A stretch of 37,743 nt of DNA. It comes from a virus. The DNA lies in IMG/VR virus record IMGVR_UViG_3300023229_000041, positions 1 to 37,743 of that record; one strand, 5' to 3'. Position numbers and translations under genes: made by a program. The notes under the pieces are model-generated. The model made no database searches, was not told where the DNA came from, and saw only the letters and a list, made by a program, of their open reading frames with translations. Of the stretch, positions 5,376-20,743 are shown piece by piece. The number at the start of each line of letters is the position of its first letter. Positions within the stretch are counted from its first letter, which is position 1.

Positions 5376-6842
5376 CTAATAATATTTATAGTCTCTTTCA
5401 ATTTTCATACCTTCTGGTTCATCCATATAGGTTGATATAAAGTTACCTTGTCGATATCTTAACACAGCTTGTGTGGTACTGTCGACATAGTCGTCATGTT
5501 GAGCAAAAGGAAAAGCTGCACATTCCTCTATTACTTCTTCGGCAAAATGAGCTCCATCTGGATAAAACACCATTCCTGATTCAAATACAGGAGAAGCAGC
5601 ATTAACTCTAGCATGCTTATCTTTACCTTTTGTAGGTATGAAATCAATTACTGGAATACCAGCACGCCTTAATTCTTGTATTAGAGATTGTCCACTAGCC
5701 TTAGCTTCCACAATAACTGACTCTGGTTCCCAATATTTATAAGCTTCAAAAGCAACAGCTTTAAGTTCTGGAAAATCCCAACGACCTTTTTCAGCATCAA
5801 GTAAAATTAAACAACTATCTTCTGGAGTAGGTTCAAATATTCCCCATGTAGTAATAGCACTGTAGTCGGCAGATTCTTTTTTAGAAAATGCAGTATCATA
5901 ACTTTGGATAACATGTTTTAAAGCAGGGACTTTTCCTTTCCAGGGGACCCAATAATCTCTTTTAATGATGGCACCTTCTTCAGCAACTGGGTCCTGCATA
6001 TATTGTGCGTTCCAGTTTCTAGGTGTAATAGATGCTTTAACACCTTCTAATTCTTCTAATGACCAATACTCAGGCCATACAGGATTCCCACTATCTAGGA
6101 TTGCAGGAAATTCTATAAGTTTCCATTTATCAGCTTTAGGTTCACTTTGTGCTTTGACGAGCCTTCCTGTTAAATCATCTTGAGCCCAACGAGTCATTAC
6201 TAACAATATGGAACCACCTGGTTGTAAACGCTGTCTGGGTCCTGATGAATACCAATCGTACGCTCTTTCCATAGCAGAGTCAGATAAAGAATCTTGCTCT
6301 GTATGTGGATCATCTATAATAAGCAAATCGGCCCCTCGACCTGTGATAGATCCGCCAACACCCGCTGCAAAGTACTCACCGCCATGGTTAGTCTCCCACC
6401 TGCCTTTTGCTTTACTGTCTTCTCGAAGTTTAACATCTCCAAAAATTTCTTTATACTCCTGGCTATCAATTAAGTTTCTAACTTTGGAACCAAATCTACC
6501 AGCTAGTTCAGCGTTGTGTGAAACTTGCATAATTTTTTTCTTAGGGTACTTCCCTATAAACCAAGCCGGATATAAAAAAGATGCAAATTCAGATTTTGTA
6601 TGACGGGGTGGCATATTCACAATGAGCCTTCCTTGTTTTCCCCCTGCAATTTTAGTTAACTCATGAGCAATATGTTGATGGTGGCCCCACTTTTTTGGGT
6701 CCTTTTCTTTTCTACAAATAAAATCTGGCCAAACTGCTTGAGCAAAATATAAAAAATTATCTTGACATAACTTAATATGTTGAATGTAGGCTTGTTCTAC
6801 ACGATCTCTTAATTGATCATTTGTTAGTGTATCGAGACTCAT
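5376..6842 (-). CDS. terL: Terminase large subunit (ATPase-nuclease)
   Basis: The packaging motor: it cuts concatemeric DNA and drives it through the portal using ATP. From the chosen start (488 residues, MSLDTLTND) the landmarks are an unusual Walker A-like PPRHTKS (about 78-84), Walker B LLIIDDPH (173-180), a coupling segment MTRWAQDD (216-223), then the RNase H-fold nuclease with D316 in SYDTAF, E379 in VIVEAK and the acidic cluster HDDYVDS (449-455). This is the terminase_6-type layout and a normal length. The frame is open for another 56 codons up to 7010, but that stretch (PPFPTSIEVPNPHK and so on) looks non-coding and contains a hairpin, so the internal ATG is preferred; the ribosome-binding site there is weak. 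Downstream genes follow in the order ejection protein, then portal. Confidence 0.95.
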   Translation of the reverse strand: MSLDTLTNDQLRDRVEQAYIQHIKLCQDNFLYFAQAVWPDFICRKEKDPKKWGHHQHIAHELTKIAGGKQGRLIVNMPPRHTKSEFASFLYPAWFIGKYPKKKIMQVSHNAELAGRFGSKVRNLIDSQEYKEIFGDVKLREDSKAKGRWETNHGGEYFAAGVGGSITGRGADLLIIDDPHTEQDSLSDSAMERAYDWYSSGPRQRLQPGGSILLVMTRWAQDDLTGRLVKAQSEPKADKWKLIEFPAILDSGNPVWPEYWSLEELEGVKASITPRNWNAQYMQDPVAEEGAIIKRDYWVPWKGKVPALKHVIQSYDTAFSKKESADYSAITTWGIFEPTPEDSCLILLDAEKGRWDFPELKAVAFEAYKYWEPESVIVEAKASGQSLIQELRRAGIPVIDFIPTKGKDKHARVNAASPVFESGMVFYPDGAHFAEEVIEECAAFPFAQHDDYVDSTTQAVLRYRQGNFISTYMDEPEGMKIERDYKYY

Positions 6843-7010
6843 AAGTAATTGATAGTTTATACATGTGTATTCCTGATTGTAAAGGCAAGCGTCAGGTACC
6901 ATAATACGCCAAATAAGAGGGGTGGGGGTAAGCCTGTACAGGTAAGAGTTTTTGTGGGGGTTTGGTACCTCTATTGAGGTGGGGAATGGTGGCGACCTAG
7001 TCGCCACCAT
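6843..7010 (-). other. G-rich, hairpin-rich leader of terL
   Basis: A 168-base stretch upstream of the preferred terL start. On the plus strand it has G-runs (GGGGTGGGGG near 6919, GGGGG near 6956, GGGG near 6980), the palindrome CCTGTACAGG near 6933, two GGTACC sites, and a perfect 11-bp hairpin (ATGGTGGCGAC at 6986-6996, loop CTA, partner at 7000-7010). No U-run follows on either strand, so it is not a simple terminator. Candidate roles are a packaging recognition/cut site or an RNA element controlling terL. Confidence 0.45.
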
Positions 7011-7020
7011 GAGAGAGTTG

Positions 7021-7314
7021 TTAGTCGTTTCTAGGTGGTTGGTTGCCCATAAGTAAGTTCATTACATCACCCATTTTAGAGAATATTCTCTCTCTAAAAT
7101 CATCAACTAATGGGTTGCCATTGTTAAGCAATATAAATTCCTCAACTGCACTTTCCATGAACTTATAAAGTATTTCATAGTTAAGCGACTTGAACTTGTC
7201 ATCACTCATCAACGATTGGATTTTACTATTATCAATGTCGTTGCCTAAATGTTTATCAAGCATAGTTGAAAACAATTTAGATGGTAAGTTATTATTGTCA
7301 TTGTTATTTGGCAT
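7021..7314 (-). CDS. Hypothetical protein upstream of terL
   Basis: A 97-residue, Asn/Asp-rich, mostly helical-looking protein with no family I recognise. It begins inside the end of the previous gene (11-nt overlap, TAATGCCAAATAA), so the two are translationally coupled. It stops just before the structured leader of terL. Length and position beside TerL would fit a packaging accessory, but a separate TerS candidate exists at 11.1-11.6 kb, so no packaging role is claimed. Confidence 0.6.
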   Translation of the reverse strand: MPNNNDNNNLPSKLFSTMLDKHLGNDIDNSKIQSLMSDDKFKSLNYEILYKFMESAVEEFILLNNGNPLVDDFRERIFSKMGDVMNLLMGNQPPRND

Positions 7315-7681
7315 TAGTATTTCCTTTCTTTATTTTTTCTAATGTATCATTGAAAGGCTTGAACTCAAGCGTTTCTATTTGTTTATAAAAGCCATTAACC
7401 AACAACTGCAATTTATAATCGCCACTGTTTTTAACGTGTTCAATAAATGACTTACTATCAAATCTTCTTTGAGTTCGTTCAATCTTTTGAATGTAAGAAC
7501 TGTTATCAATGATGTAGACGTTTTGTTTAAGTCTATCAAAGATACCTTTCACAACTTCTTTAGTATCTGCTTTTAAAGTTTGATACTTGTTAAGTAAGTA
7601 AGCTTGATTGATGTATGCTTTAAGCACTCTAACATCTGCCTTGCTCACTGCGTTAGCTTTTGTTTTTTTTGCGTTTTGCAT
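7304..7681 (-). CDS. Hypothetical helical protein
   Basis: A 125-residue basic protein, predicted helical, with a central RTQRRFDSKSFIEHVKNSGDYKL block. A Arg-Phe-Asp-x-Lys-x-Phe pattern occurs in small hypothetical proteins of many phages, but no function is known to me. ATG at 7681 is preceded by AATAAGGAAATAAAA. The 60-90 bases upstream contain overlapping TTATCTTATC/GATAAGATAA palindromes, so this gene and the next probably form the first genes of a locally controlled transcript that reads into terL. Confidence 0.6.
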   Translation of the reverse strand: MQNAKKTKANAVSKADVRVLKAYINQAYLLNKYQTLKADTKEVVKGIFDRLKQNVYIIDNSSYIQKIERTQRRFDSKSFIEHVKNSGDYKLQLLVNGFYKQIETLEFKPFNDTLEKIKKGNTNAK

Positions 7682-7710
7682 TTTTATTTCCTTATTGTTT
7701 TATTAATTTA

Positions 7711-7745
7711 TAAGATAATAATTTATCTTATCTGGATAAGATAAA
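7711..7745. promoter_or_regulatory. Tandem palindromic operator-like sites
   Basis: Two overlapping inverted repeats lie upstream of the 7304-7681 gene. TAAGATAA (7711-7718) pairs with TTATCTTA (7723-7730), and TTTATCTTATC (7722-7732) pairs perfectly with GATAAGATAAA (7735-7745) around a 2-base centre. CTTATC/GATAAG also occurs in the promoter regions near 8917, 9731 and 14582-14611, which suggests one regulator with several targets. Confidence 0.5.
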
Positions 7746-7812
7746 GATTTTTACAAAGATTGATACAAAAAAATAAACTTTATTTTAATTTAATTTAGAT
7801 GTGCTTGTGAAT

Positions 7813-7842
7813 AACCCTCACTGATTTTTAGTGAGGGTTTTT
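7813..7842 (+). terminator. Rho-independent terminator, plus strand
   Basis: AACCCTCACT (7813-7822) pairs perfectly with AGTGAGGGTT (7830-7839) around a 7-base loop and runs into TTTTT then ATATTT on the plus strand. The minus strand has no matching U-run. No convincing plus-strand gene lies upstream, so it ends either a short plus-strand transcript or antisense RNA from the terL side. Confidence 0.65.
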
Positions 7843-7860
7843 ATATTTAAGAAGTTTTAG

Positions 7861-7895
7861 TGCTGGGCACTGGTGCTGGGCACTGGTGCTGGGGG
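7861..7895 (+). repeat. 13-bp tandem repeat TGCTGGGCACTGG
   Basis: Two perfect 13-bp units (7861-7873, 7874-7886) and a partial third unit. The 12-mer GCTGGGCACTGG recurs inverted as CCAGTGCCCAGC at 9902-9913, so inverted copies bracket the AACGAGG-rich region. Confidence 0.75.
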
Positions 7896-7942
7896 TTAGT
7901 CTAATACAACAAACGAGGCTACAACGAGGATTACAACGAGGA

Positions 7943-8194
7943 TCAGCATTGTTCCTCCTGCTTTTTGTTGGGTTCTTTTAGATGTCCTATCTCATGCAAG
8001 TAGTCATACGAGGTATTCATAGTGCTTGTGAAATGTCTAGTCCTATGTTCTGATGGTGTGTCCTCATCTGCGTGCATACACATCTCTGCGAGCAATCGCT
8101 TCAGCTTGTGATTTTGTTTCTTTATGTTCTCATGTTCAATCGCCTTGTTGCTTGATTGTACTTCTTCTATTAGTCTATCTGTTTGGTCTGTCAT
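7943..8194 (-). CDS. Small hypothetical coiled-coil protein
   Basis: An 83-residue, charged protein with a likely coiled coil at residues 5-40 (EEVQSSNKAIEHENIKKQNH) and a His/Glu-rich end. No family is recognised. The start is well supported by AAAAGGAGATAAC directly before ATG. The stop codon abuts an AACGAGGA copy (7935-7942), a placement shared with other genes of this region. It stands alone, separated from its neighbours by repeat-rich DNA. Confidence 0.55.
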   Translation of the reverse strand: MTDQTDRLIEEVQSSNKAIEHENIKKQNHKLKRLLAEMCMHADEDTPSEHRTRHFTSTMNTSYDYLHEIGHLKEPNKKQEEQC

Positions 8195-8350
8195 GTTATC
8201 TCCTTTTCCTTTTGTGTATCACACTCCTCTTGGTCTAGCAATAAAAAATTTAGAATAATGTGCGAAAGCAAAATCGCCAGGTGCCAGTCCCTAAAGGAAG
8301 AAGTAGTTTACTAACCGAACGCATAGCAAACGAGGAACGAGGTATAGAGA

Positions 8351-8479
8351 TGTGTGAACCCAACAGGAGCTACTCAAAAGATTCACACACCGAACGTGTT
8401 AAGCCGTTCCCTAATTTCTGGCACGCCAGCGCCAGCCGTTAAGGAATAGCCGTTGGCTATGCGTAAAGCATAGCCAACG
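8351..8479. other. Structured non-coding stretch with two hairpins
   Basis: The interval 8195-8491 has no convincing gene. It holds TGTGTGAA (8351-8358) pairing with TTCACACA (8382-8389), a GCCGTT word three times (near 8403, 8435, 8449), and a perfect 12-bp stem CGTTGGCTATGC (8451-8462) with GCATAGCCAACG (8468-8479) around a 5-base loop. No U-run follows on either strand. The last stem lies just beyond the stop of the 8492-8884 gene and may protect or end that mRNA. Confidence 0.45.
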
Positions 8480-8491
8480 AGAAACGAGGAT

Positions 8492-8884
8492 TTACCACCA
8501 ACAAGTATAATAAACGCACTCGCCTTTTTCTACTACTTTTCTAGCCTTCTCGACAAAGCCTAAATCGTAAGCCTTCTGCTCTTTCTTTTCCTCGTCATCA
8601 TAGTCATAACTATCTTCGCCGAAAAAGAACCCACATGTTTCAGGCAAGAGTTCGCCCTCTATAGCTTGCTCGAGTTCGTCAATCATACCTTCGTTGAGCC
8701 AAAGTCTTTCACAATTAAACTCTTTGTCCCCATAAGGATTTTGTTCAACAAACTTATTTTGAAACCAACCATGTAATCGGTTGTGCTTTCTCCAATAAGC
8801 CAACTCCTCTCTGTTGTCGTCTTTTATTTCTTTTTTATCTTCAACAACATTCTTGGTCTTGTAGGCATACATGTCTAAACCCAT
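8492..8884 (-). CDS. Conserved phage protein, MGLDMYA family, unknown function
   Basis: A 130-residue acidic protein beginning MGLDMYAYKTK, with AYWRKHNRLHGWFQNKF (about 28-44), LPETCGFFFGEDSYD (about 80-94) and ending VYYTCWW. Proteins with this start and a Trp-rich helical core are common in phages of many hosts; I know of no demonstrated function. The frame opens 2 codons earlier (ATG at 8890), but that ATG touches the GGAG, whereas 8884 has AAAGGAG with normal spacing and gives the family's usual N-terminus. It has its own promoter candidate (8915-8942) and ends one base from an AACGAGGA copy. Confidence 0.75.
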   Translation of the reverse strand: MGLDMYAYKTKNVVEDKKEIKDDNREELAYWRKHNRLHGWFQNKFVEQNPYGDKEFNCERLWLNEGMIDELEQAIEGELLPETCGFFFGEDSYDYDDEEKKEQKAYDLGFVEKARKVVEKGECVYYTCWW

Positions 8885-8914
8885 GTTCATCTCCTTTGTT
8901 AGTTAATATCCTTA

Positions 8915-8942
8915 TGCTTATCATAGATGGGATACATGTCAA
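8915..8942 (-). promoter_or_regulatory. Promoter for the 8492-8884 gene
   Basis: On the minus strand, TTGACA (8942-8937) is followed after 16 bases by TAAGCA (8920-8915). The -10 area includes GATAAG (complement of 8917-8922), the same word as in other promoters of this window. The gene's ribosome-binding site follows 20 bases later. Confidence 0.5.
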
Positions 8943-8988
8943 ACATTATTTTCACCATATTTTCCACCAATATCTCACCTGCTCTGAC

Positions 8989-9014
8989 GCCCCAGCTCCC
9001 CAGTCCCCAGCTCC
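8989..9014. repeat. Degenerate CCCCAGCTCC repeat, G-quadruplex candidate
   Basis: CCCCAGCTCC, CCCAGT and CCCCAGCTCC follow one another inside the non-coding gap 8891-9106. The minus-strand transcript would carry three GGGG runs spaced by 3-4 bases plus a nearby GG, so a small G-quadruplex is possible. The words resemble the CCAGTGCCCAGC family at 7862 and 9902. The rest of the gap holds AACGAGG copies at 9051 and 9058 and no gene that I can see. Confidence 0.5.
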
Positions 9015-9106
9015 TGTAGTACCCATCACCAGCAGTGCCACGGAGATCCAAACGAGGAACGAGGTCGCCTCTGGATAAAGTATTGAAAAGAACACGAGGA
9101 ATGCAA

Positions 9107-9469
9107 TTAGGAACAAGCTTCTACCTCTTTATCGAAAGCAGCCAGCTTCTCTTCCCGTGCTGAATCATCTAATTCCTGAGCCAGTACTTCAACGGCAAAC
9201 CAAACGAGGTCGTTCTTCAGTATCGTCAACGAGGAAGGGTCTTTGCAAATGTTGTAGAGCTGCAGGCCATTCTTGATCCCAGCTGCATCCGCGGTGTCTG
9301 TTAGGACCTGCCAAATCTCATCCTCATGATCATCATAAAACGAGGACGTCTCGTTGTAATAGATCAGGCCCCCGATGCCACCGGCGCAGCCGTGTTTCGC
9401 AATGTCTGAGATTAGAAAACTTTCTTCCTTCTCTCCTTCAGTTAACCATTCTTTAATTGTGCTAGTCAT
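9107..9469 (-). CDS. Conserved small phage protein, unknown function
   Basis: A 120-residue acidic protein (MTSTIKEWLTEGEKEESFL...) with an SDIAKHGCAGGIGGLIYY block (about 22-39), then DEIWQVLTDTADAAG and VWFAVEVLAQEL. The His-Gly-Cys-x-Gly-Gly block followed by acidic helices looks like a small phage family seen elsewhere, of unknown function. Its start overlaps the preceding small gene in ATGACTAG, and GGAGGTGAAAG is a strong ribosome-binding site. Three AACGAGG copies lie inside the coding region (9203, 9228, 9339; read as part of DLVW, PSSL and SSF), which is unusual for a conserved gene. Confidence 0.65.
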   Translation of the reverse strand: MTSTIKEWLTEGEKEESFLISDIAKHGCAGGIGGLIYYNETSSFYDDHEDEIWQVLTDTADAAGIKNGLQLYNICKDPSSLTILKNDLVWFAVEVLAQELDDSAREEKLAAFDKEVEACS

Positions 9470-9638
9470 CTTTCACCTCCGACTCTTTCCATGTGTTACC
9501 GTTGGCGATGCATGGTGTGCCCTTGGCACCTGTCAGTGCGTATACTTTGTCTTCTTTAGGTTTGTCCTCTTCTACTTTAATATATTCTGTTCCGTAGTAT
9601 TCGTTCATCTGTTGTATTAGTTTTTTACTTATAGTCAT
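9462..9638 (-). CDS. 58-residue hypothetical protein
   Basis: A 58-codon frame starting MTISKKLIQQMNEYYGTEYI and ending NTWKESEVKDD. GAAAGGAAAAT precedes the ATG. Its stop overlaps the start of the 9107-9469 gene by 8 bases, and its own start follows the stop of the 23-codon frame by a ribosome-binding-site length, so three small genes form an operon behind the promoter at 9723-9755. No domain is recognisable; a Gly-x-Pro-Cys pair (TGAKGTPCIANG) is the only distinctive stretch. Confidence 0.6.
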   Translation of the reverse strand: MTISKKLIQQMNEYYGTEYIKVEEDKPKEDKVYALTGAKGTPCIANGNTWKESEVKDD

Positions 9639-9647
9639 ATTTTCCTT

Positions 9648-9719
9648 TCAAAAGTAAATCACACCTGTCGCTAATAGTAAGCCGACATACGCTGTGATAA
9701 ATATTAATATATGTGTCAT
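9648..9719 (-). CDS. 23-residue membrane peptide
   Basis: A short frame (MTHILIFITAYVGLLLATGVIYF) that is one continuous hydrophobic segment, the length of a single membrane span. It ends with TGA directly before the ribosome-binding site of the next gene. It begins very close to the promoter's -10 element and has no Shine-Dalgarno, so it would be translated from a near-leaderless mRNA or not at all. The regular spacing favours a real micro-gene, possibly a membrane regulator; function unknown. Confidence 0.4.
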   Translation of the reverse strand: MTHILIFITAYVGLLLATGVIYF

Positions 9720-9722
9720 CCC

Positions 9723-9755
9723 ATTATAGATAAGATGTCTTGGTCTAGATGTCAA
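9723..9755 (-). promoter_or_regulatory. Sigma70-type promoter for the three-gene operon
   Basis: The minus strand reads TTGACA (9755-9750), 17 bases, TATCTA (9732-9727), with an overlapping TATAAT at 9728-9723. CTTATC lies at the -10, matching the GATAAG/CTTATC boxes at 7711-7745 and 14582-14611. Confidence 0.65.
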
Positions 9756-10060
9756 GCTTTTATTTTTTTTATTTTGAGCTGGATAAAACAGGATCCTGAG
9801 CTGCTGGTTCCAGATGGTAATGGATCGGTGAGGAGTGGTGCCTCACAAACGAGGAACGAGGAATTGGTAATCCTCACAGGACACAGGTTCTTCTGTGGAC
9901 GCCAGTGCCCAGCTCAGGATGCCCAGCTGCAGGGGGCTCAGGAGATATAACTCAAACGAGGATTAGAAACGAGGAATGGAAAACGAGGATTTAAACCCCT
10001 GTGCCAGCAGATGAAGACTGGCCAGGAGCGAAAGGAAATATGTATGCGAACACACAAATT
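9756..10060 (-). ncRNA. Candidate leftward non-coding RNA with UCCUCGUU repeats
   Basis: This 305-base interval has no reading frame with a credible start on the minus strand but lies directly behind a near-consensus promoter (10067-10095). The predicted transcript carries five UCCUCGUU elements (complements of 9848, 9855, 9955, 9968, 9982). It also carries a long-range 11-bp pair: ATCCTGAGCTG (9793-9803) matches the complement of CAGCTCAGGAT (9910-9920), with a competing 8-base copy at 9936-9943. Bases 9901-9950 are 31/50 G+C in an otherwise AT-rich genome. The 3' end is not clear. UCCUC resembles the anti-Shine-Dalgarno of 16S rRNA, so pairing with GAGGA/GGAGG leaders is one possible activity. 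It could instead be only an untranslated leader or a repeat-filled spacer. Confidence 0.35.
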
Positions 10061-10066
10061 TCTTTA

Positions 10067-10095
10067 GTATTAAACGAGGATCCGACTTATGTCAA
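10067..10095 (-). promoter_or_regulatory. Strong promoter with an AACGAGGA copy in its spacer
   Basis: The minus strand reads TTGACA (10095-10090), exactly 17 bases, TAATAC (10072-10067). The -35 overlaps the stop codon of the VRR-NUC gene. The AACGAGGA copy at 10073-10080 fills the part of the spacer next to the -10, where a bound factor would affect RNA polymerase. It points into the gene-free interval 10060-9756. Confidence 0.6.
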
Positions 10096-10505
10096 GAGTT
10101 ATTTACCAGCAGGTTCCTCAGGAGCTGCCAGCTCTCACCAGGCACCGGGTCGGTGAGAGTTAATAATAAAACGAGGGAACGAGAAAACGAGGATGCGGAC
10201 GAGGGATCCACCTCACCGGCCACTCTGTAAAGTTTCAAAGCTCTGTGCGAGAGGGCCTGATGCAGCACGAAAACGACACCTCCATGTCTTTGGTATTCAT
10301 AACACCATGCCATTTGGAACTTAGACAGGATAGGAAACTTGTCCTCTGTAGACTTCATTTCTATCCAAAAAGAATGACCATTACCACACCCATGAATGTC
10401 AGGTATACCTTGAATAGTATCGCTTTCTATCCTTGTAAAATGTATCTTTTTTATATGTTTTTTTATTCGTTGAAACAACAACGACTCACGTTTTTTTAAT
10501 GCCAT
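10092..10505 (-). CDS. VRR-NUC domain endonuclease
   Basis: A 137-residue protein. Residues 1-95 match the phage stand-alone VRR-NUC fold (PD-(D/E)XK superfamily): E7 in KRESLL, G33-x-P-D36 (QGIPDIHG), E49-x-K51 (FWIEMKS) and Q64 (SKFQMAW). Enzymes of this family cut DNA, often branched or flap structures; the target here is unknown. Residues 96-137 form an atypical tail (Ser/Leu-rich) encoded by DNA holding three AACGAGG-type copies and a CACCGGCCAC word, so the original C-terminus may have been replaced or extended by repeat DNA. The start follows the 56-codon gene by 4 bases. The stop overlaps the -35 of a promoter. Confidence 0.75.
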   Translation of the reverse strand: MALKKRESLLFQRIKKHIKKIHFTRIESDTIQGIPDIHGCGNGHSFWIEMKSTEDKFPILSKFQMAWCYEYQRHGGVVFVLHQALSHRALKLYRVAGEVDPSSASSFSRSLVLLLTLTDPVPGESWQLLRNLLVNNS

Positions 10506-10509
10506 TTAT

Positions 10510-10680
10510 TCAAGACAAGGTACACCCCATAAAGACTCCTTCATAGACTAAATATTCTCTTAAAACTTTACACATTTCAAACAAATCCTTACCCCATTGT
10601 TCTACTGGTATACCCACTAACATCTCCTTTGTTACAGGTATTATATGATACAAATCGTTTAAATATATAATTATACTCAT
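10510..10680 (-). CDS. 56-residue hypothetical protein
   Basis: A 56-codon frame starting MSIIIYLNDLYHIIPVTKEM, with IPVEQWGKDLFEMCKVLREYL in the middle and a Cys-containing end. Its ATG overlaps the stop of the previous gene (TAATG), and 4 bases separate it from the VRR-NUC start. That packing is the main evidence that it is real, since no family is recognised. It is predicted to be an amphipathic helical protein. Confidence 0.6.
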   Translation of the reverse strand: MSIIIYLNDLYHIIPVTKEMLVGIPVEQWGKDLFEMCKVLREYLVYEGVFMGCTLS

Positions 10681-11009
10681 TAATGAAGTTGTTTTATAGA
10701 TTGAATAACACTTGTAGGAATTAAAGTTGTATTACCAATATCTTCGAAAGTATCCTTGTCCTTAGTCTTAATGTAGTCAGTGAAAATTCTAGTCACACCT
10801 TTTTGTTGAGACACAAGATAACCTTTAGAAACACATGTAGGCAACTTTTCAAGTTTTAATAATTTAGTGTTGGACCAGCCGGCATCCCCTTCAATATCAA
10901 GCCAAGCTATTTCTACAAAAGGATAATCTTCAATCTTGTTGCCAAGTTTTTTAAGATTTAATGGAAAAGTTTTTTTATATATTTTGTTACTTATTTTCTT
11001 CTTCTTCAT
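10680..11009 (-). CDS. Conserved phage protein with W-x-D-GW pattern
   Basis: A 109-residue protein with a basic N-terminus (MKKKKISNKIYKK) and the pattern VEIAWLDIEGDAGWSN (about 32-47), then CVSKGYLVSQQKGVTRIFTDY and LIPTSVIQSI at the end. Small proteins with a Trp-x-Asp...Gly-Trp core, a Gly-Tyr-Leu strand and an Ile-Pro-x-x-x-Ile end are widespread in phages and have no known function. The start overlaps the end of the 10987-11193 frame by 23 bases. It is in the leftward run from terS. Confidence 0.65.
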   Translation of the reverse strand: MKKKKISNKIYKKTFPLNLKKLGNKIEDYPFVEIAWLDIEGDAGWSNTKLLKLEKLPTCVSKGYLVSQQKGVTRIFTDYIKTKDKDTFEDIGNTTLIPTSVIQSIKQLH

Positions 11010-11193
11010 TTGTAGTTACCTCCACGTTACCTATTTTAGACTTCATTGTTTTCAAATGAGAGTTATGAACTTCGTTAAACACAGTAAAGAAATCATTACT
11101 CGCTAGTAATTTCTTCTGGCGTAACGTCAATGATGTTTTTGGCTTCTCCAATTTTGGCTTCAAGTTCGGATAACCTTTTCTCAAGTTGTTCAC
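10987..11193 (-). CDS. Hypothetical protein overlapping terS, start uncertain
   Basis: A frame of up to 68 codons (MNNLRKGYPNLKPKLEKPK...), ending TTNEEEENK. Using the first ATG it overlaps the terS 3' end by 98 bases, longer than other overlaps here. An internal GTG (codon 38) or ATG (codon 50) would leave only 31 or 19 residues. It fills the gap between terS and the next gene and its 3' end overlaps that gene's start, so some product is likely. No domain is recognised. Confidence 0.4.
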   Translation of the reverse strand: MNNLRKGYPNLKPKLEKPKTSLTLRQKKLLASNDFFTVFNEVHNSHLKTMKSKIGNVEVTTNEEEENK

Positions 11194-11596
11194 GGTTCAT
11201 TCCCTCTAATGTATTGTTAGTAATTTCTTTCTTATCAATATACATTCCAGCCAATTGCCCAGATCTATATTCAGCATTAATTGCTGCCGCAAATTGGTTT
11301 TTCTTTTCTGCACCATCGCCATACTTTTCTAATCGCTTAAACGATCTTAATGGGTTGGCATATTTATTTCTTTCAATAGCTATTTTCTTTTCCATGTATC
11401 TAACGACATGAGGGTTTAAATTAGGATTAGTTATCTTAGATGCAATAGTGCTTGGATCTTTAGCAACATAGCCTGCTTGTCTCGCAGCTTCAGTTTTAGA
11501 TATGTTACCAAAATTAGCCACATAAATGTCCACAAACTTTCTTTGTTTTGCAGTCAAATCATGCATTGTTTTCAAAACGTTTTTCTTAGCAGCCAT
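11096..11596 (-). CDS. terS: Terminase small subunit
   Basis: A 166-residue protein that should recognise phage DNA and recruit TerL. The N-terminal LTAKQRKFVDIYVANFGNIS followed by KTEAARQAGY (about residues 14-43) is the classic helix-turn-helix signature of this family. Residues 50-110 (HVVRYMEKKI, NQFAAAINAEYRSGQLAGMY) match the oligomerisation core, and the Glu-rich end (REQLEKRLSELEAKIGEAK) is a probable coiled coil. TTGAGGATTGAATA precedes ATG at 11596. It is separated from terL by about 4.1 kb of accessory genes and repeats, whereas the two are usually adjacent. The call is made from the sequence pattern alone. Confidence 0.85.
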   Translation of the reverse strand: MAAKKNVLKTMHDLTAKQRKFVDIYVANFGNISKTEAARQAGYVAKDPSTIASKITNPNLNPHVVRYMEKKIAIERNKYANPLRSFKRLEKYGDGAEKKNQFAAAINAEYRSGQLAGMYIDKKEITNNTLEGMNREQLEKRLSELEAKIGEAKNIIDVTPEEITSE

Positions 11597-11970
11597 TATT
11601 CAATCCTCAATAAGATATTTTTAACTCAATTAAGACAATACAAACATTTAGCACCTTTGTCCACAAGGACACTTCTGTGTCACAGATGTCAGAGAATGTC
11701 AGAGAAAAAAAGGTGTTGTGACACGCTATTAGTGTTGTATATCAATGTAAATAGACTAAAAAGAGGGTTGTGTCACAGATGTCAGACTTTTTCTAGGGGT
11801 ACTAAGGGGGTAAAGGGTATAAATATCTTATATAGAAGTGTTAAATGCATAAAATGGCGTAAAATTGCCGTTTGTCCGGTGGCCGGTGTCAATATACATT
11901 AGAACGATTCTAATTAGAATATTTTCTTTTAAACTTTCTGTATGTAAATTTATAGAACTGTCTTTCCGCA
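11597..11970. promoter_or_regulatory. Gene-free control region with direct and inverted repeats
   Basis: The 374-base gap upstream of terS has no credible gene. TGTGTCACAGATGTCAGA occurs at 11676-11693 and again at 11769-11786 (perfect 18-bp direct repeat). Between them TGTGACAC (11717-11724) is the inverse of the GTGTCACA core, so the core occurs three times. TGTCAGAGAA is itself doubled near 11687. The gap also holds a G-rich tract (AGGGGTACTAAGGGGGTAAAGGG near 11796) and a GC-rich CCGGTGGCCGGTGTC copy (11876-11890). A regulator-binding region for terS expression is likely; no clean -35/-10 pair is seen. Confidence 0.5.
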
Positions 11971-12405
11971 CTACCCAAAGGGGCACTCAAATATAGCTTT
12001 CCGAAGCGCTTCAATGTTTCTAAAATGCTGCTTGCGTTGTTCTTTAGTTGTAGCTTTTCTAAGTTTTTCATATTCTTTCGTATACTTTATATTCAAATGT
12101 TGTCTCTGTGTAAACTTAATTCTACCATCTTCTAACGCATTTAAATATCGGAGTCTTACATATTTAGGCTCAAGCTCGGCTTGGTTGCATACAAATTTAA
12201 AGTCATCAGAATTATTACAAAACCAGTCATGGGCTTCGCCTTTTAACACACTCTCGGTCCTGTTCTGGTTAGTGATTAGGACGTCTTCTAGAGCCATAGA
12301 GATGACTCCTCTCCAAATTCTAATCTCTGGGTCCAATGACTTCTCCACCAATTTTTCTGCGATTTTTAGACCCATAATTTTTAGGATCTCTATAGATATG
12401 TTCAT
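11971..12405 (-). CDS. Conserved phage hypothetical protein
   Basis: A 144-residue basic protein with IWRGVISMALEDVL (about 29-42), EAHDWFCNNSDDFKFVCNQAELEPKYVRLR (58-87) and a Lys/Arg-rich helical C-terminus. The block 'A-x-x-W/F-x-x-S-x-D-F-x-x-V/I-C-x-x-A-x-L-x-P-x-x-V/I-R' recurs in small phage proteins encoded near replication or packaging genes; its role is unknown. ATG at 12405 has GGAG at a usable distance. TTGACA-18-TAATAC ends directly before this ATG, so that promoter-like pair is either coincidental or implies a start further in (ATG at 12375). Confidence 0.6.
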   Translation of the reverse strand: MNISIEILKIMGLKIAEKLVEKSLDPEIRIWRGVISMALEDVLITNQNRTESVLKGEAHDWFCNNSDDFKFVCNQAELEPKYVRLRYLNALEDGRIKFTQRQHLNIKYTKEYEKLRKATTKEQRKQHFRNIEALRKAIFECPFG

Positions 12406-17648: not shown

Positions 17649-19245
17649 TTATAACCGTCCTTCTGAAATAAGATGCAATACGCCCCAAAGGAAAAAAATA
17701 TGGATGATTAGTAGAGAGGATATGAAGGGATTTCTTACTCCTCGTAACACCAGTATACCAAACACGCGCCTCGGCCATTTTGTCCTTCCCATTCTTAGAT
17801 GCGAAATTAGATGGCCAATTAGTTTTTTCATATAGTACTACGTTATCTGCTTCTCCTCCTTTTACGGAGTGTATTGTGTCTATGATTATTTTTGCTTTAT
17901 CATTAAACTGTGTCTTATTTTTTATCATAGTTTCAAAATAATCCAAGTCTCTTGTTGTAAATTTTCTATTTAATACTTCCCACCAATTTGTGCCGGTGGC
18001 CTGTAGCCCACAATTACTTTTTAAAAATTCTATATCAAGGGGTTGGTTTGGGTGAATATCACTCCATGCCTTGTTATCAATCTTTCTCCATCCTTTTTTA
18101 ATCTCGTTTATGAACTCATATAGAACTCCCACCTGTTCTTTTGTAATGGAATCACCATTAATTAAAGAAAACCAGTATTCAATAGCATTCCATTTATTCA
18201 TATTAAAAGACTTATTACCTCTCATATCCTGAAAATACAAACCTTTTTGCCTAGCATGTTCCTTTAATTCCTCTACATTGTCTCCTACTCTGCCTAAAAC
18301 AAACCAAGATCCTCCTATACTTTCAAAAGGTATTTCATTAAATCTATTATAAGTCTCAATATAGCCTTCACCTTTTTTAACAGGAGTAAAATCTTTTTCT
18401 TGTCTTTCAGTTATAAATTTAAGTATTTCCTTAGAAAAATTAAGAATCACTTCGTTTAATCTATAAGACTTATTTAATATAAATATCTTCCCTGGAAAGT
18501 CTAAAAAACATCTAACCTTAGCACCATTCCATTCATAAATGGCTTGATCATCATCTCCAGCTAGATAAACTCTCTTTGATGTAGCTGCAACTTTATTTAC
18601 AAACTCCCATTGTAATGGAGTTAAGTCTTGAGCTTCATCAACTATAAATACTTTGTATTCAGGTGGATCTATTTCTTTCACATATTTTTCTACCATGTCT
18701 GTGAAATCCATTTTATTATCTTTTTTAAATTTAATATAATTTCTAACAATATCTGTAAATTGATTTAGTCTTACTTTTTTAATAGGTTCCGCTTTATATA
18801 CTTCTATTGGATCTGCTAACATGTTTCTGGATTTATCATAGACTCTTAATGACCAGTTATTAAATACTTTACTGTTTGCATCATCTTCAGAAAAATTAGC
18901 TGATATAGTTCCCCAATCTGTATGAAACTTTAACATATCTACTCTAGGATCTAATACAGGAGTAGAAAACTGTTTCTTACAAAAAGAATGAATAGTTCTA
19001 AAATTACCAAAGTCTTCTTCTTTGTATTGTGTAAACTTAGCAAGGACTCTTGTTACTGCTTCGTTAATTGCTTTGTTAGTAAAAGATACATATACCATTT
19101 CATGAGGTAGGATTCCTAACCTTAAATGTTTTTCAATTAATTTTATTAGCCTAGTGGTTTTTCCAGTGCCTGGAGGACCAAATATCTTAAAAGTTTTATT
19201 GGCTATCTGGGTCAAATGGAGCTGCCTGTTGTGTGAATTTAACAT
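17641..19245 (-). CDS. SF1 (UvrD/PcrA-like) DNA helicase
   Basis: A 534-residue ATP-driven 3'-5' type helicase. Motif I is GPPGTGKT (23-30), Ia-like VSFTNKA (53-59), motif II VDEAQD (202-207), motif III GDDDQAIYEWNGA (230-242), motif IV-like KSYRLNE, motif V IHSVKGGEADNVV and motif VI VTRSKKSL. It is shorter than cellular UvrD (about 720), as usual in phages. The first ATG overlaps the primase gene by 50 bases; a TTG at codon 11 would shorten this, so the start is uncertain. With the primase and polymerase it probably makes the replication fork machinery, since no DnaB-like helicase is present. A GC-rich repeat at 17990 encodes GLQATGT. Confidence 0.9.
   Translation of the reverse strand: MLNSHNRQLHLTQIANKTFKIFGPPGTGKTTRLIKLIEKHLRLGILPHEMVYVSFTNKAINEAVTRVLAKFTQYKEEDFGNFRTIHSFCKKQFSTPVLDPRVDMLKFHTDWGTISANFSEDDANSKVFNNWSLRVYDKSRNMLADPIEVYKAEPIKKVRLNQFTDIVRNYIKFKKDNKMDFTDMVEKYVKEIDPPEYKVFIVDEAQDLTPLQWEFVNKVAATSKRVYLAGDDDQAIYEWNGAKVRCFLDFPGKIFILNKSYRLNEVILNFSKEILKFITERQEKDFTPVKKGEGYIETYNRFNEIPFESIGGSWFVLGRVGDNVEELKEHARQKGLYFQDMRGNKSFNMNKWNAIEYWFSLINGDSITKEQVGVLYEFINEIKKGWRKIDNKAWSDIHPNQPLDIEFLKSNCGLQATGTNWWEVLNRKFTTRDLDYFETMIKNKTQFNDKAKIIIDTIHSVKGGEADNVVLYEKTNWPSNFASKNGKDKMAEARVWYTGVTRSKKSLHILSTNHPYFFPLGRIASYFRRTVINE
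17990..18009 (+). repeat. Dispersed GC-rich repeat in helicase gene
   Basis: GTGCCGGTGGCCTGTAGCCC, differing at one base from 4301-4320. It lies in a region of the helicase gene that is otherwise AT-rich. Confidence 0.7.
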
Positions 19246-20743
19246 TTCTTTCTTTTATGTTTTCTTGTTTAGGCTTAGGTATTTTCCATAGTCTCCCTTT
19301 GTAGTCACTGTGAGATCTTATGTACTCTGCACCATTATCAATAAGAAGTTCTTTTACTTCAGAAGGTTTCATATTATTTCCATCCTTCTTTAAAAACTTT
19401 TTAAATACTTCTGCTCTAAAAAATAGATGTCCATCATCTTCAAAAATATAATCAGTTTGTGTTTGTGTTATATGATCTGCAAGTTGGCTATCATCAATAA
19501 AGTTTCTAAACAGATACTCAAACTCATCTTTGTCATCATCTGTAAAGTCATATCCTTCTACTTCAGTTTGCATAGATTTAAGGAAAGTTAACCACATATT
19601 AAATCCTTCCTTCTCCATTGTTTTCCACACAATATCTGCATCAAACAATTCTGTTTTTAATAACTGTTGCTGACATAATTGTTGACCTGTTAATCTAATA
19701 GGTTTTTTATCTATTGTTAAAATATATTTAGGTGGCTTAGTGCTTATCTTTTGAAAACTATCTATTGAAAAACTATAGTTATGTTTACCTATACCTAACT
19801 TTCTTTTTACACATGCAGCTTGATCACAAAACTTTTTAGCAATAGGAGTATTGCATCTATAGTTATAAGTCTTTTCACTACTTAAACTTTTAATTACAGT
19901 TGCTTTTAATTCTTTAGCAGGTATCGCATTGTCTTTCCAATTCTTGTTTACTTCACTTAACCCATCTTCCCATGCACCGTCTTTACCATGTTTTTTTAAC
20001 ATAAGAACTCCTACATTAAACAAAGCATCGTTTCTGCCTTCTCCAGGTTCTACTGTATTTTTAATAAAACTTTGAACACATGGTGGATAATCATTAAACT
20101 GTTGGTCTTCATCATGTAATTCTTCTATTTTAATTTTATAAAAGTCTTCTGGTTTAACTAAATAAGGGGTTACTGCTTTCTCCAAATCTTCTATTGCAAT
20201 TGATTGGCCTTTATCATCTATTGCATGTCTAGTTGTAAATTTAGCATTTTGATAAGGCAAGTTTAACCAGTTACCAATTGTACCTAACTCAACATTTATA
20301 GTTCTTTGTTTTGGAAATATTTCACAATCAGCTAAACCTAAACGACTTGCAAGTTGTGTTAACTTATCAATCATATCAGTTGCAGGAATTACTCCATCAA
20401 TATGTAAAAATATATGTAATCCACCAGATTTAGATCTGTATGGAAACAAAGGTAATTTTAAATCTCTAATTTTTTTAATTGCAATAAGTGGATTAAATCC
20501 GTCATACTCATCTACATCTATACAACCCCACTTACATTGGTTGTCTTTCATAATAGGAACAATTCCTAAACTTAATTGTCCATTTAAATGTTGTCTAAAT
20601 AATTCTATGGTTACGTCACCTTTTTTAGTTAAGGCACGACCTTCAGCTTTACCATCTTCCCTATGAGCTCCGTTGAGCTCATAGGTTCCGTAGGCAGATG
20701 TTAAGCCCCCAAAAAGTTTACTAAAAAAATTTAGTGAACTCAT
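19196..20743 (-). CDS. AEP-type (archaeo-eukaryotic) primase
   Basis: A 515-residue protein. The catalytic core has CIDVDEYD (74-81; D76 and D78 bind metal), SKSGGLHIFLH (104-114; H110 contacts nucleotide) and NVELGTIGNWLNLPY (150-164), matching the phage/TOTE-like branch of AEP primases. A helical segment follows, then a Cys cluster (C297, C306, C311 in CNTPIAKKFCDQAACVKRKLGIG region) typical of the zinc-binding part. Residues 330-515 are helical and unassigned; there is no fused helicase domain, so unwinding must come from the adjacent SF1 helicase. The start shares one base with the stop of the upstream gene (TAATG). Confidence 0.85.
   Translation of the reverse strand: MSSLNFFSKLFGGLTSAYGTYELNGAHREDGKAEGRALTKKGDVTIELFRQHLNGQLSLGIVPIMKDNQCKWGCIDVDEYDGFNPLIAIKKIRDLKLPLFPYRSKSGGLHIFLHIDGVIPATDMIDKLTQLASRLGLADCEIFPKQRTINVELGTIGNWLNLPYQNAKFTTRHAIDDKGQSIAIEDLEKAVTPYLVKPEDFYKIKIEELHDEDQQFNDYPPCVQSFIKNTVEPGEGRNDALFNVGVLMLKKHGKDGAWEDGLSEVNKNWKDNAIPAKELKATVIKSLSSEKTYNYRCNTPIAKKFCDQAACVKRKLGIGKHNYSFSIDSFQKISTKPPKYILTIDKKPIRLTGQQLCQQQLLKTELFDADIVWKTMEKEGFNMWLTFLKSMQTEVEGYDFTDDDKDEFEYLFRNFIDDSQLADHITQTQTDYIFEDDGHLFFRAEVFKKFLKKDGNNMKPSEVKELLIDNGAEYIRSHSDYKGRLWKIPKPKQENIKERNVKFTQQAAPFDPDSQ

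Follow-up and report, generated by a model that had tools for sequence, protein, structure and literature searches.

What is the function of a field of short, identically oriented DNA words that lies between the small (terS) and large (terL) terminase genes of a phage? The question is raised by IMG/VR virus record IMGVR_UViG_3300023229_000041, of which positions 1 to 37,743 were analyzed (the window, 37,743 bp) and in which a first-pass annotation had described a plus-strand array of AACGAGG. Judged by its TerL, which shares 74% identity with its counterpart in Pelagibacter phage HTVC023P and 57–58% with those of 023Pt_psg01 and HTVC027P, the window phage is a relative of HTVC023P-type pelagiphages. 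Its array and those of its relatives have words that point one way, are confined to one place, and are replaced from lineage to lineage, together with conserved inverted repeats. There is good support for an iteron field that acts at the DNA level, is locked in polarity, and is tied to the terminase junction. Its likeliest job, which we propose tentatively, is packaging initiation from the terS–terL locus, with the field acting as a diffuse pac-like region. A replication origin ranks second and is the main rival.

As the first-pass annotation had noted, the plus strand carries 19 copies of AACGAGG, exactly this number lying at 7912–10192; the word is absent from the minus strand and from the rest of the window. 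Fourteen of these copies are the longer form that the annotation reported, AACGAGGA. Dinucleotide shuffles (n = 100) gave a mean of 1.47 copies on both strands and a maximum of 7, and none reached 19. The ACGAGG core occurs 22 times in the array region and nowhere else on the plus strand, and AACGAGG with this core forms the top-ranking 7-mer cluster of the window (log10 P ~ -48). Three doublets were also found as described, except that the 7-mers abut head to tail and share a base only if read as 8-mers. Words of 7 bp at uneven distances do not form the regular 20–40 bp repeats and spacers of a CRISPR array, so both a CRISPR array and a classic tandem repeat are ruled out, as had been anticipated. 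Copies fall in gaps (14) and in genes (three in a DUF7222 gene, two in the 3' end of a nuclease gene), and GC content is 0.44 in the array region versus 0.34 in the window, again in line with the annotation. The interval holds small accessory genes, such as DUF7222, with GC-rich gaps and, as spotted by eye, sigma70-like promoters between them. Pfam agrees with the earlier assignment of both terminase genes.

Relatives were sampled from viral contigs (80 terL relatives and 80 terS relatives). An array in the same place and the same direction relative to terL was found in ~45 loci of group 1, which includes the window, and in ~12 clear loci of group 2 (023Pt_psg01/HTVC027P-like), where terS is inverted. 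In every array-bearing locus it lies between terS and terL. All intervals with a TerS identity of at least ~80% carry a CCTCGTT-type word (terL-sense), L037 with a TTTCTCG variant. More distant group-1 intervals carry other one-way words, including TCTCGTT with TCCCGTT, CTCGTTC, CCCACGCC, CGCCTCG, CCACGTT, and TTCCCGT. Group-1 words all match YYNCGYY in terL sense (RRCGNRR on the other strand), a consensus fitted by eye, and look like the outcome of drift around a CG core. Group-2 words are GCTCGCT, CGCTTG, or CCCACCC. Interval GC content ranges from 0.36 to 0.42 in array-bearing loci versus 0.29 to 0.33 in array-less loci. Near-complete group-1 genomes confine their words to the terminase interval: one (G001) has 10 forward and 0 reverse copies, all inside 2.4 kb, and another (G017) has 22 forward and 3 reverse, the latter scattered.

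The remote cyanophage Planktothrix phage Pag-Yong1, whose TerL is 43% identical, has an array with matching place and direction relative to terL. Ten one-way copies of GTCATAC lie upstream of terL, with no reverse copies in the cluster, and form the top one-way 7-mer cluster in its 65-kb genome. This array (TGTCATACA-type iterons, L582:10067-10755) is located between terL and a gene for 171 amino acids (aa) of unknown family, which may be terS. In the more distant cultured phages Pam1, XM1, CRP-901, and DSL-LC04, no one-way cluster of this kind is linked to terL. Roseobacter phage CRP-901 does carry one-way GAGAGAG words ahead of successive replication-block genes (L586:8054-10318). A pattern scan of viral contigs for satellites carrying the array returned, among the matches listed, relatives of the window phage and matches without terL, many of them at distances divisible by three, as coding repeats are.

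The words are under purifying selection. L008 retains 17 of the window's 19 words intact, compared with 43% of other 7-mers, and identity is 0.96 at word sites versus 0.84. The same trend, weaker, holds against L256 (13 of 19 words versus a 52% background, with two words in gaps). Neighbor spacing is mostly 6–8 bp in the CCTCGTT clade, 6 bp with CCCACG and CTCGTTC, 5 bp with CGCCTCG, and 4 bp in group 2. A near-identical virus (L007:163-290) has an extra ~82 bp segment with a TCTCGTT doublet that is not in the window, so word-bearing segments are gained and lost. This extra segment and the lineage-specific tandem period are what would be expected of largely neutral, low-complexity DNA growing by local duplication in an accessory-gene island. 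That explanation is nevertheless very improbable: words that outlast their surroundings in L008 and L256 already contradict neutrality, and the words are one-way in all lineages, kept within coding sequence, and recurrent in remote phages. Conservation among near relatives, replacement in further clades, and confinement to the interval fit an earlier proposal, in which a fast-evolving module carries an array of protein-binding sites or iterons. The origin and the recombination hot-spot named there are candidate roles.

Word orientation is tied to terL and not to terS or to local genes. Part of the group-2 interval is transcribed the opposite way, yet the words there still read terL-sense. Across 14 group-2 loci, 22.1 of 61.6 kb were antisense by an open reading frame (ORF) rule, and these zones held 88 forward and 5 reverse words; group-2 words had been preselected for forward enrichment over the whole interval, and the informative part is that they do not flip inside the antisense zones. 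Inverted repeats were compared between related pairs (stems of at least 7 bp). Double changes kept Watson-Crick pairing in 87 cases and broke it in 27 (2 giving G.T), and single changes giving G.T were strand-neutral (61 on the terL-sense strand versus 58 on the other), although pairs share ancestry and the counts overstate independent events. The pattern favors constraint on DNA inverted repeats and carries no sign of an RNA strand; an RNA structure in the terL-sense strand was rejected on this ground, its compensation being real but its strand preference absent.

Because direction ignores the genes and the stems are strand-neutral, the words would be recognized in DNA, or in the terL strand as a single strand, rather than as a local mRNA motif. 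The same two observations disfavor the RNA-motif role offered by the first-pass annotation. A broader version, in which a long terL-sense transcript is bound by an oligomeric single-strand-binding protein or acts as a sponge, draws on the tandem spacing of 6–8 nt with slack, which resembles single-strand binding, and on group-1 words that lie on the mRNA-sense strand, often past stop codons. It is improbable given that group-2 words stay terL-sense within and between antisense genes, that stems lack a G.U preference, and that an Rfam scan of 7000–12000 gave no family match up to E = 1, although a long terL-sense transcript may run across the antisense stretches. TRAP-type RNA arrays, which consist of short triplet-like words on one strand with flexible spacing of 1–3 nt, are a lead only; they differ in that the evidence for the array is at the DNA level, and no such protein was found.

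Packaging is preferred because the field keeps its place and direction relative to terL in three phage groups that differ in local genes, in terS orientation, and in primase. A phage nucleoprotein complex would assemble on the words and inverted repeats beside the terminase genes, its multivalent binding might mark phage concatemers and set the direction of packaging, and word turnover among lineages could keep packaging specific. The array resembles the TerS-read pac and cosB sites (lambda cosB R sites, SPP1 pac, and P22 pac), which are at or beside the terminase genes and which, by means of short asymmetric elements, fix where packaging begins and which way it runs; SPP1 pac has multiple contact points (PMC9611059). 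Known sites differ in spanning tens to a few hundred base pairs with one to a few motifs, compared to 10–20 words over 2–4 kb that run into genes and are untracked by TerS. The 023Pt_psg01 and Pag-Yong1 records are listed as circular, which would suit headful packaging but could be an assembly effect alone.

Candidate readers were evaluated by correlating word-profile similarity with protein identity over 30 group-1 loci, with permutations that ignore phylogeny. The nuclease encoded at the array edge was the best correlate (r 0.55, partial 0.34 when conditioned on other genes, permutation p 0.0005), followed by a 97-aa protein (r 0.52, partial 0.21, p 0.0085) and a 125-aa protein (r 0.44, partial 0.12). 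TerL gave r 0.34 and partial -0.14. The nuclease also leads in group 2, weakly (0.35 versus 0.06 for TerL and -0.15 for TerS), and its gene is co-oriented with the array in 24 of 24 group-2 loci where it was detected. The 97-aa gene is present in 43 of 45 array-bearing and 0 of 34 array-less group-1 intervals, the latter representing only a few clades. Its product has an AlphaFold pLDDT of 67 and no fold match, and it was rejected as a general reader since group 2 has arrays without the gene. The 125-aa protein has a confident helical/beta model with only non-significant HU/IHF-like matches. The nuclease and 97-aa genes lie on either side of the array, so linkage could explain these correlations in full.

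We infer a protein reader for the words, packaging as the process served, and the nuclease, not TerS by itself, as this reader or as the cutter. The nuclease might instead have the array as its target field, cutting or nicking words or cruciforms formed by the inverted repeats and thereby opening concatemers for packaging or starting recombination-dependent replication. Its correlation with the word in both groups, its position, and its Holliday-junction-resolvase-like family matches speak for such a role. It remains unlikely, however, with the nuclease kept in 33 of 34 array-less intervals, a correlation that could come from physical linkage, and a VRR_NUC Pfam score beneath the curated cut-off. 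Resolvases, moreover, usually have little sequence preference.

Several observations weigh against packaging initiation. At 2.3 kb and 19 words, the array is far bigger than known pac or cos sites, and its lineage-dependent repeat period (4, 5, 6, 7, or 14) is unlike a fixed protein lattice. TerS does not predict the word (r 0.32, partial -0.06, its N-terminal part doing no better), and it did not co-vary with the site in either group, by what is an indirect test; TerS was rejected as the reader on these values. The nuclease correlation may itself be linkage because the gene adjoins the array and persists in array-less phages. Two clades, HTVC023P-like and L138-type, keep terS and terL without the array, so that an array is not found in all relatives with the same terminase. 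The first, with 27 rows of the terS tree, branches from within array-bearing clades; the second has an inverted terS. These clades retain the packaging genes, and core packaging there is therefore independent of the array. They also keep the flanking genes, and the array is therefore replaceable or accessory in these phages. A genome-wide scan of HTVC023P for a relocated array found only GGTGGTG-type, glycine-rich-looking coding words in structural genes. The comparison of the interval among relatives that the first-pass annotation had proposed thus had a divided outcome: near relatives keep the array, and the HTVC023P clade, which keeps the flanking genes, has neither it nor a replacement, the outcome that the annotation had named as refuting. 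This weakens the case that the array is indispensable and leaves its reality intact. Confidence in packaging stays tentative because TerS does not track the word and array-less clades exist.

A replication origin, in which the words are initiator iterons or strand-specific start sites for an AEP-type primase between the replication and structural blocks, is rather unlikely. Iterated words in one direction (19:0 here), inverted repeats, and promoters are what an origin typically comprises, and the window encodes an AEP-TOTE primase, a UvrD-like helicase, and PolA. The PrimPol of phage NrS-1, another AEP-primase phage, uses one specific template word of 8 nt, TTTGGTTA, as its starting point for synthesis (PMC8718748); this word is likewise short and strand-specific. 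Primase identity, by contrast, does not follow the word across relatives of the window phage. L152 has a CCTCGTT-type word as in the window, yet its primase is 28% identical to the window's and 77–79% identical to that of phages using CCCACGC, which rules out the primase as a simple determinant of the word. The window primase gene (19196-20743) has 71–82% identity in near relatives and ~30–38% in other clades with TerL at 72–75%, a drop that suggests replacement of the replication module. Unlike iteron origins, the field spreads over kilobases and into genes, and it is lost in a clade that keeps its replication genes: array-less HTVC023P retains primase, helicase, and PolA, and primase was detected in four of five array-less records searched. 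Among the window genes scanned, there was no Rep or other initiator family.

That TerS, TerL, and primase all fail to track the word could also be explained by a host-read word, such as a Chi-like sequence or the site of a host DNA-binding protein, which would change upon a host switch. The words are suitably short, G-rich on one strand, and strand- and lineage-specific. They are clustered rather than genome-wide, however, and a pattern scan of genome collections gave, among the matches listed, hits scattered across many phyla and no SAR11 record, making this explanation quite improbable. Mycobacteriophage L5 stoperators are another comparison. These are numerous asymmetric sites close to the ends of genes, one-way and drifting between lineages, that are genome-wide and read by an immunity repressor (PMC9283540, PMC6550527). 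The array, in contrast, is limited to the terS–terL interval and, where stoperators are oriented with transcription, disregards gene direction in group 2; a repressor for it was not found.

The features of the locus are compiled in Table 1. A short direct repeat, GTGCTGGGCACTG, adjoins the array end at 7855-7900. Early-type promoters at 9720-9760 and in relatives have a common conserved spacer and -10 context (TTGACATNTATCCCATNAGGTCTTATCTATA), perhaps an operator.

Table 1. Coordinates of the word array, inverted repeats, and neighboring genes in the window
Feature	Position	Strand	Remarks
Whole array, 19 AACGAGG and degenerate ACGAG(G/A) copies	7912..10192	+	Antisense to leftward genes; terL-sense word CCTCGTT
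Word cluster 1 (7912, 7923, 7935)	7912..7941	+	Directly past stop codon of ORF 7943-8194
Word doublet (8329, 8336)	8329..8342	+	
Word	8483..8489	+	Adjoins inverted repeat 8451-8479; directly past stop codon of ORF 8492-8890
Word doublet (9051, 9058)	9051..9064	+	
Three words (9203, 9228, 9339) within DUF7222 gene, in differing frames	9203..9345	+	
Word doublet (9848, 9855)	9848..9861	+	
Word triplet (9955, 9968, 9982)	9955..9988	+	
Word in spacer of leftward sigma70-like promoter (TTGACA/TAATAC, 10067-10095, minus strand)	10073..10079	+	
Words 10170 and 10186 with degenerate copies, 3' end of nuclease gene	10170..10192	+	Kept in ~10 relatives
Inverted repeat CGTTGGCTATGC/GCATAGCCAACG	8451..8479	none	
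Inverted repeat TTCCCTAA/TTAAGGAA	8408..8446	none	Retained in L008 via compensatory change
Inverted repeat GTGTGAA/TTCACAC	8352..8388	none	Conserved in L008
Inverted repeat CTCTCACC/GGTGAGAG	10132..10159	none	Conserved in L008 and L256
VRR-NUC/Holliday-junction-resolvase-like PD-(D/E)XK nuclease	10092..10505	-	Divergence tracks word best
terS, Terminase_2 (PF03592)	11096..11596	-	Pfam
terL, Terminase_6C	5376..7010	-	Pfam; word direction tied to terL in all groups
97-aa acidic helical protein, no known family	7021..7314	-	
125-aa basic protein (long helix, beta hairpin, helix), operon partner	7304..7681	-	Array-less relatives have one too

In the literature that was searched, nothing on such word arrays came up. 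It is possible that they constitute a class of phage cis-element not described before: 10–20 short words, locked in polarity, at the terminase junction. Lineages would rewrite the word but preserve its location and orientation, and something other than TerS or primase would read it. Its words would be RRCGNRR (consensus) in group 1, AGCGAGC, CAAGCG, or GGGTGGG in group 2, and TGTATGACA in the cyanophage. How terminases find phage DNA remains unsettled; TerS DNA binding is described in a review as still unclear and controversial, with pac binding weak in vitro (PMC9611059). Phages with the same gene order and different one-way words are a natural test series for this question, and HTVC023P- and HTVC027P-type phages exist in culture. 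If the field is instead an origin, it would locate the start of replication in a very abundant group of marine phages.

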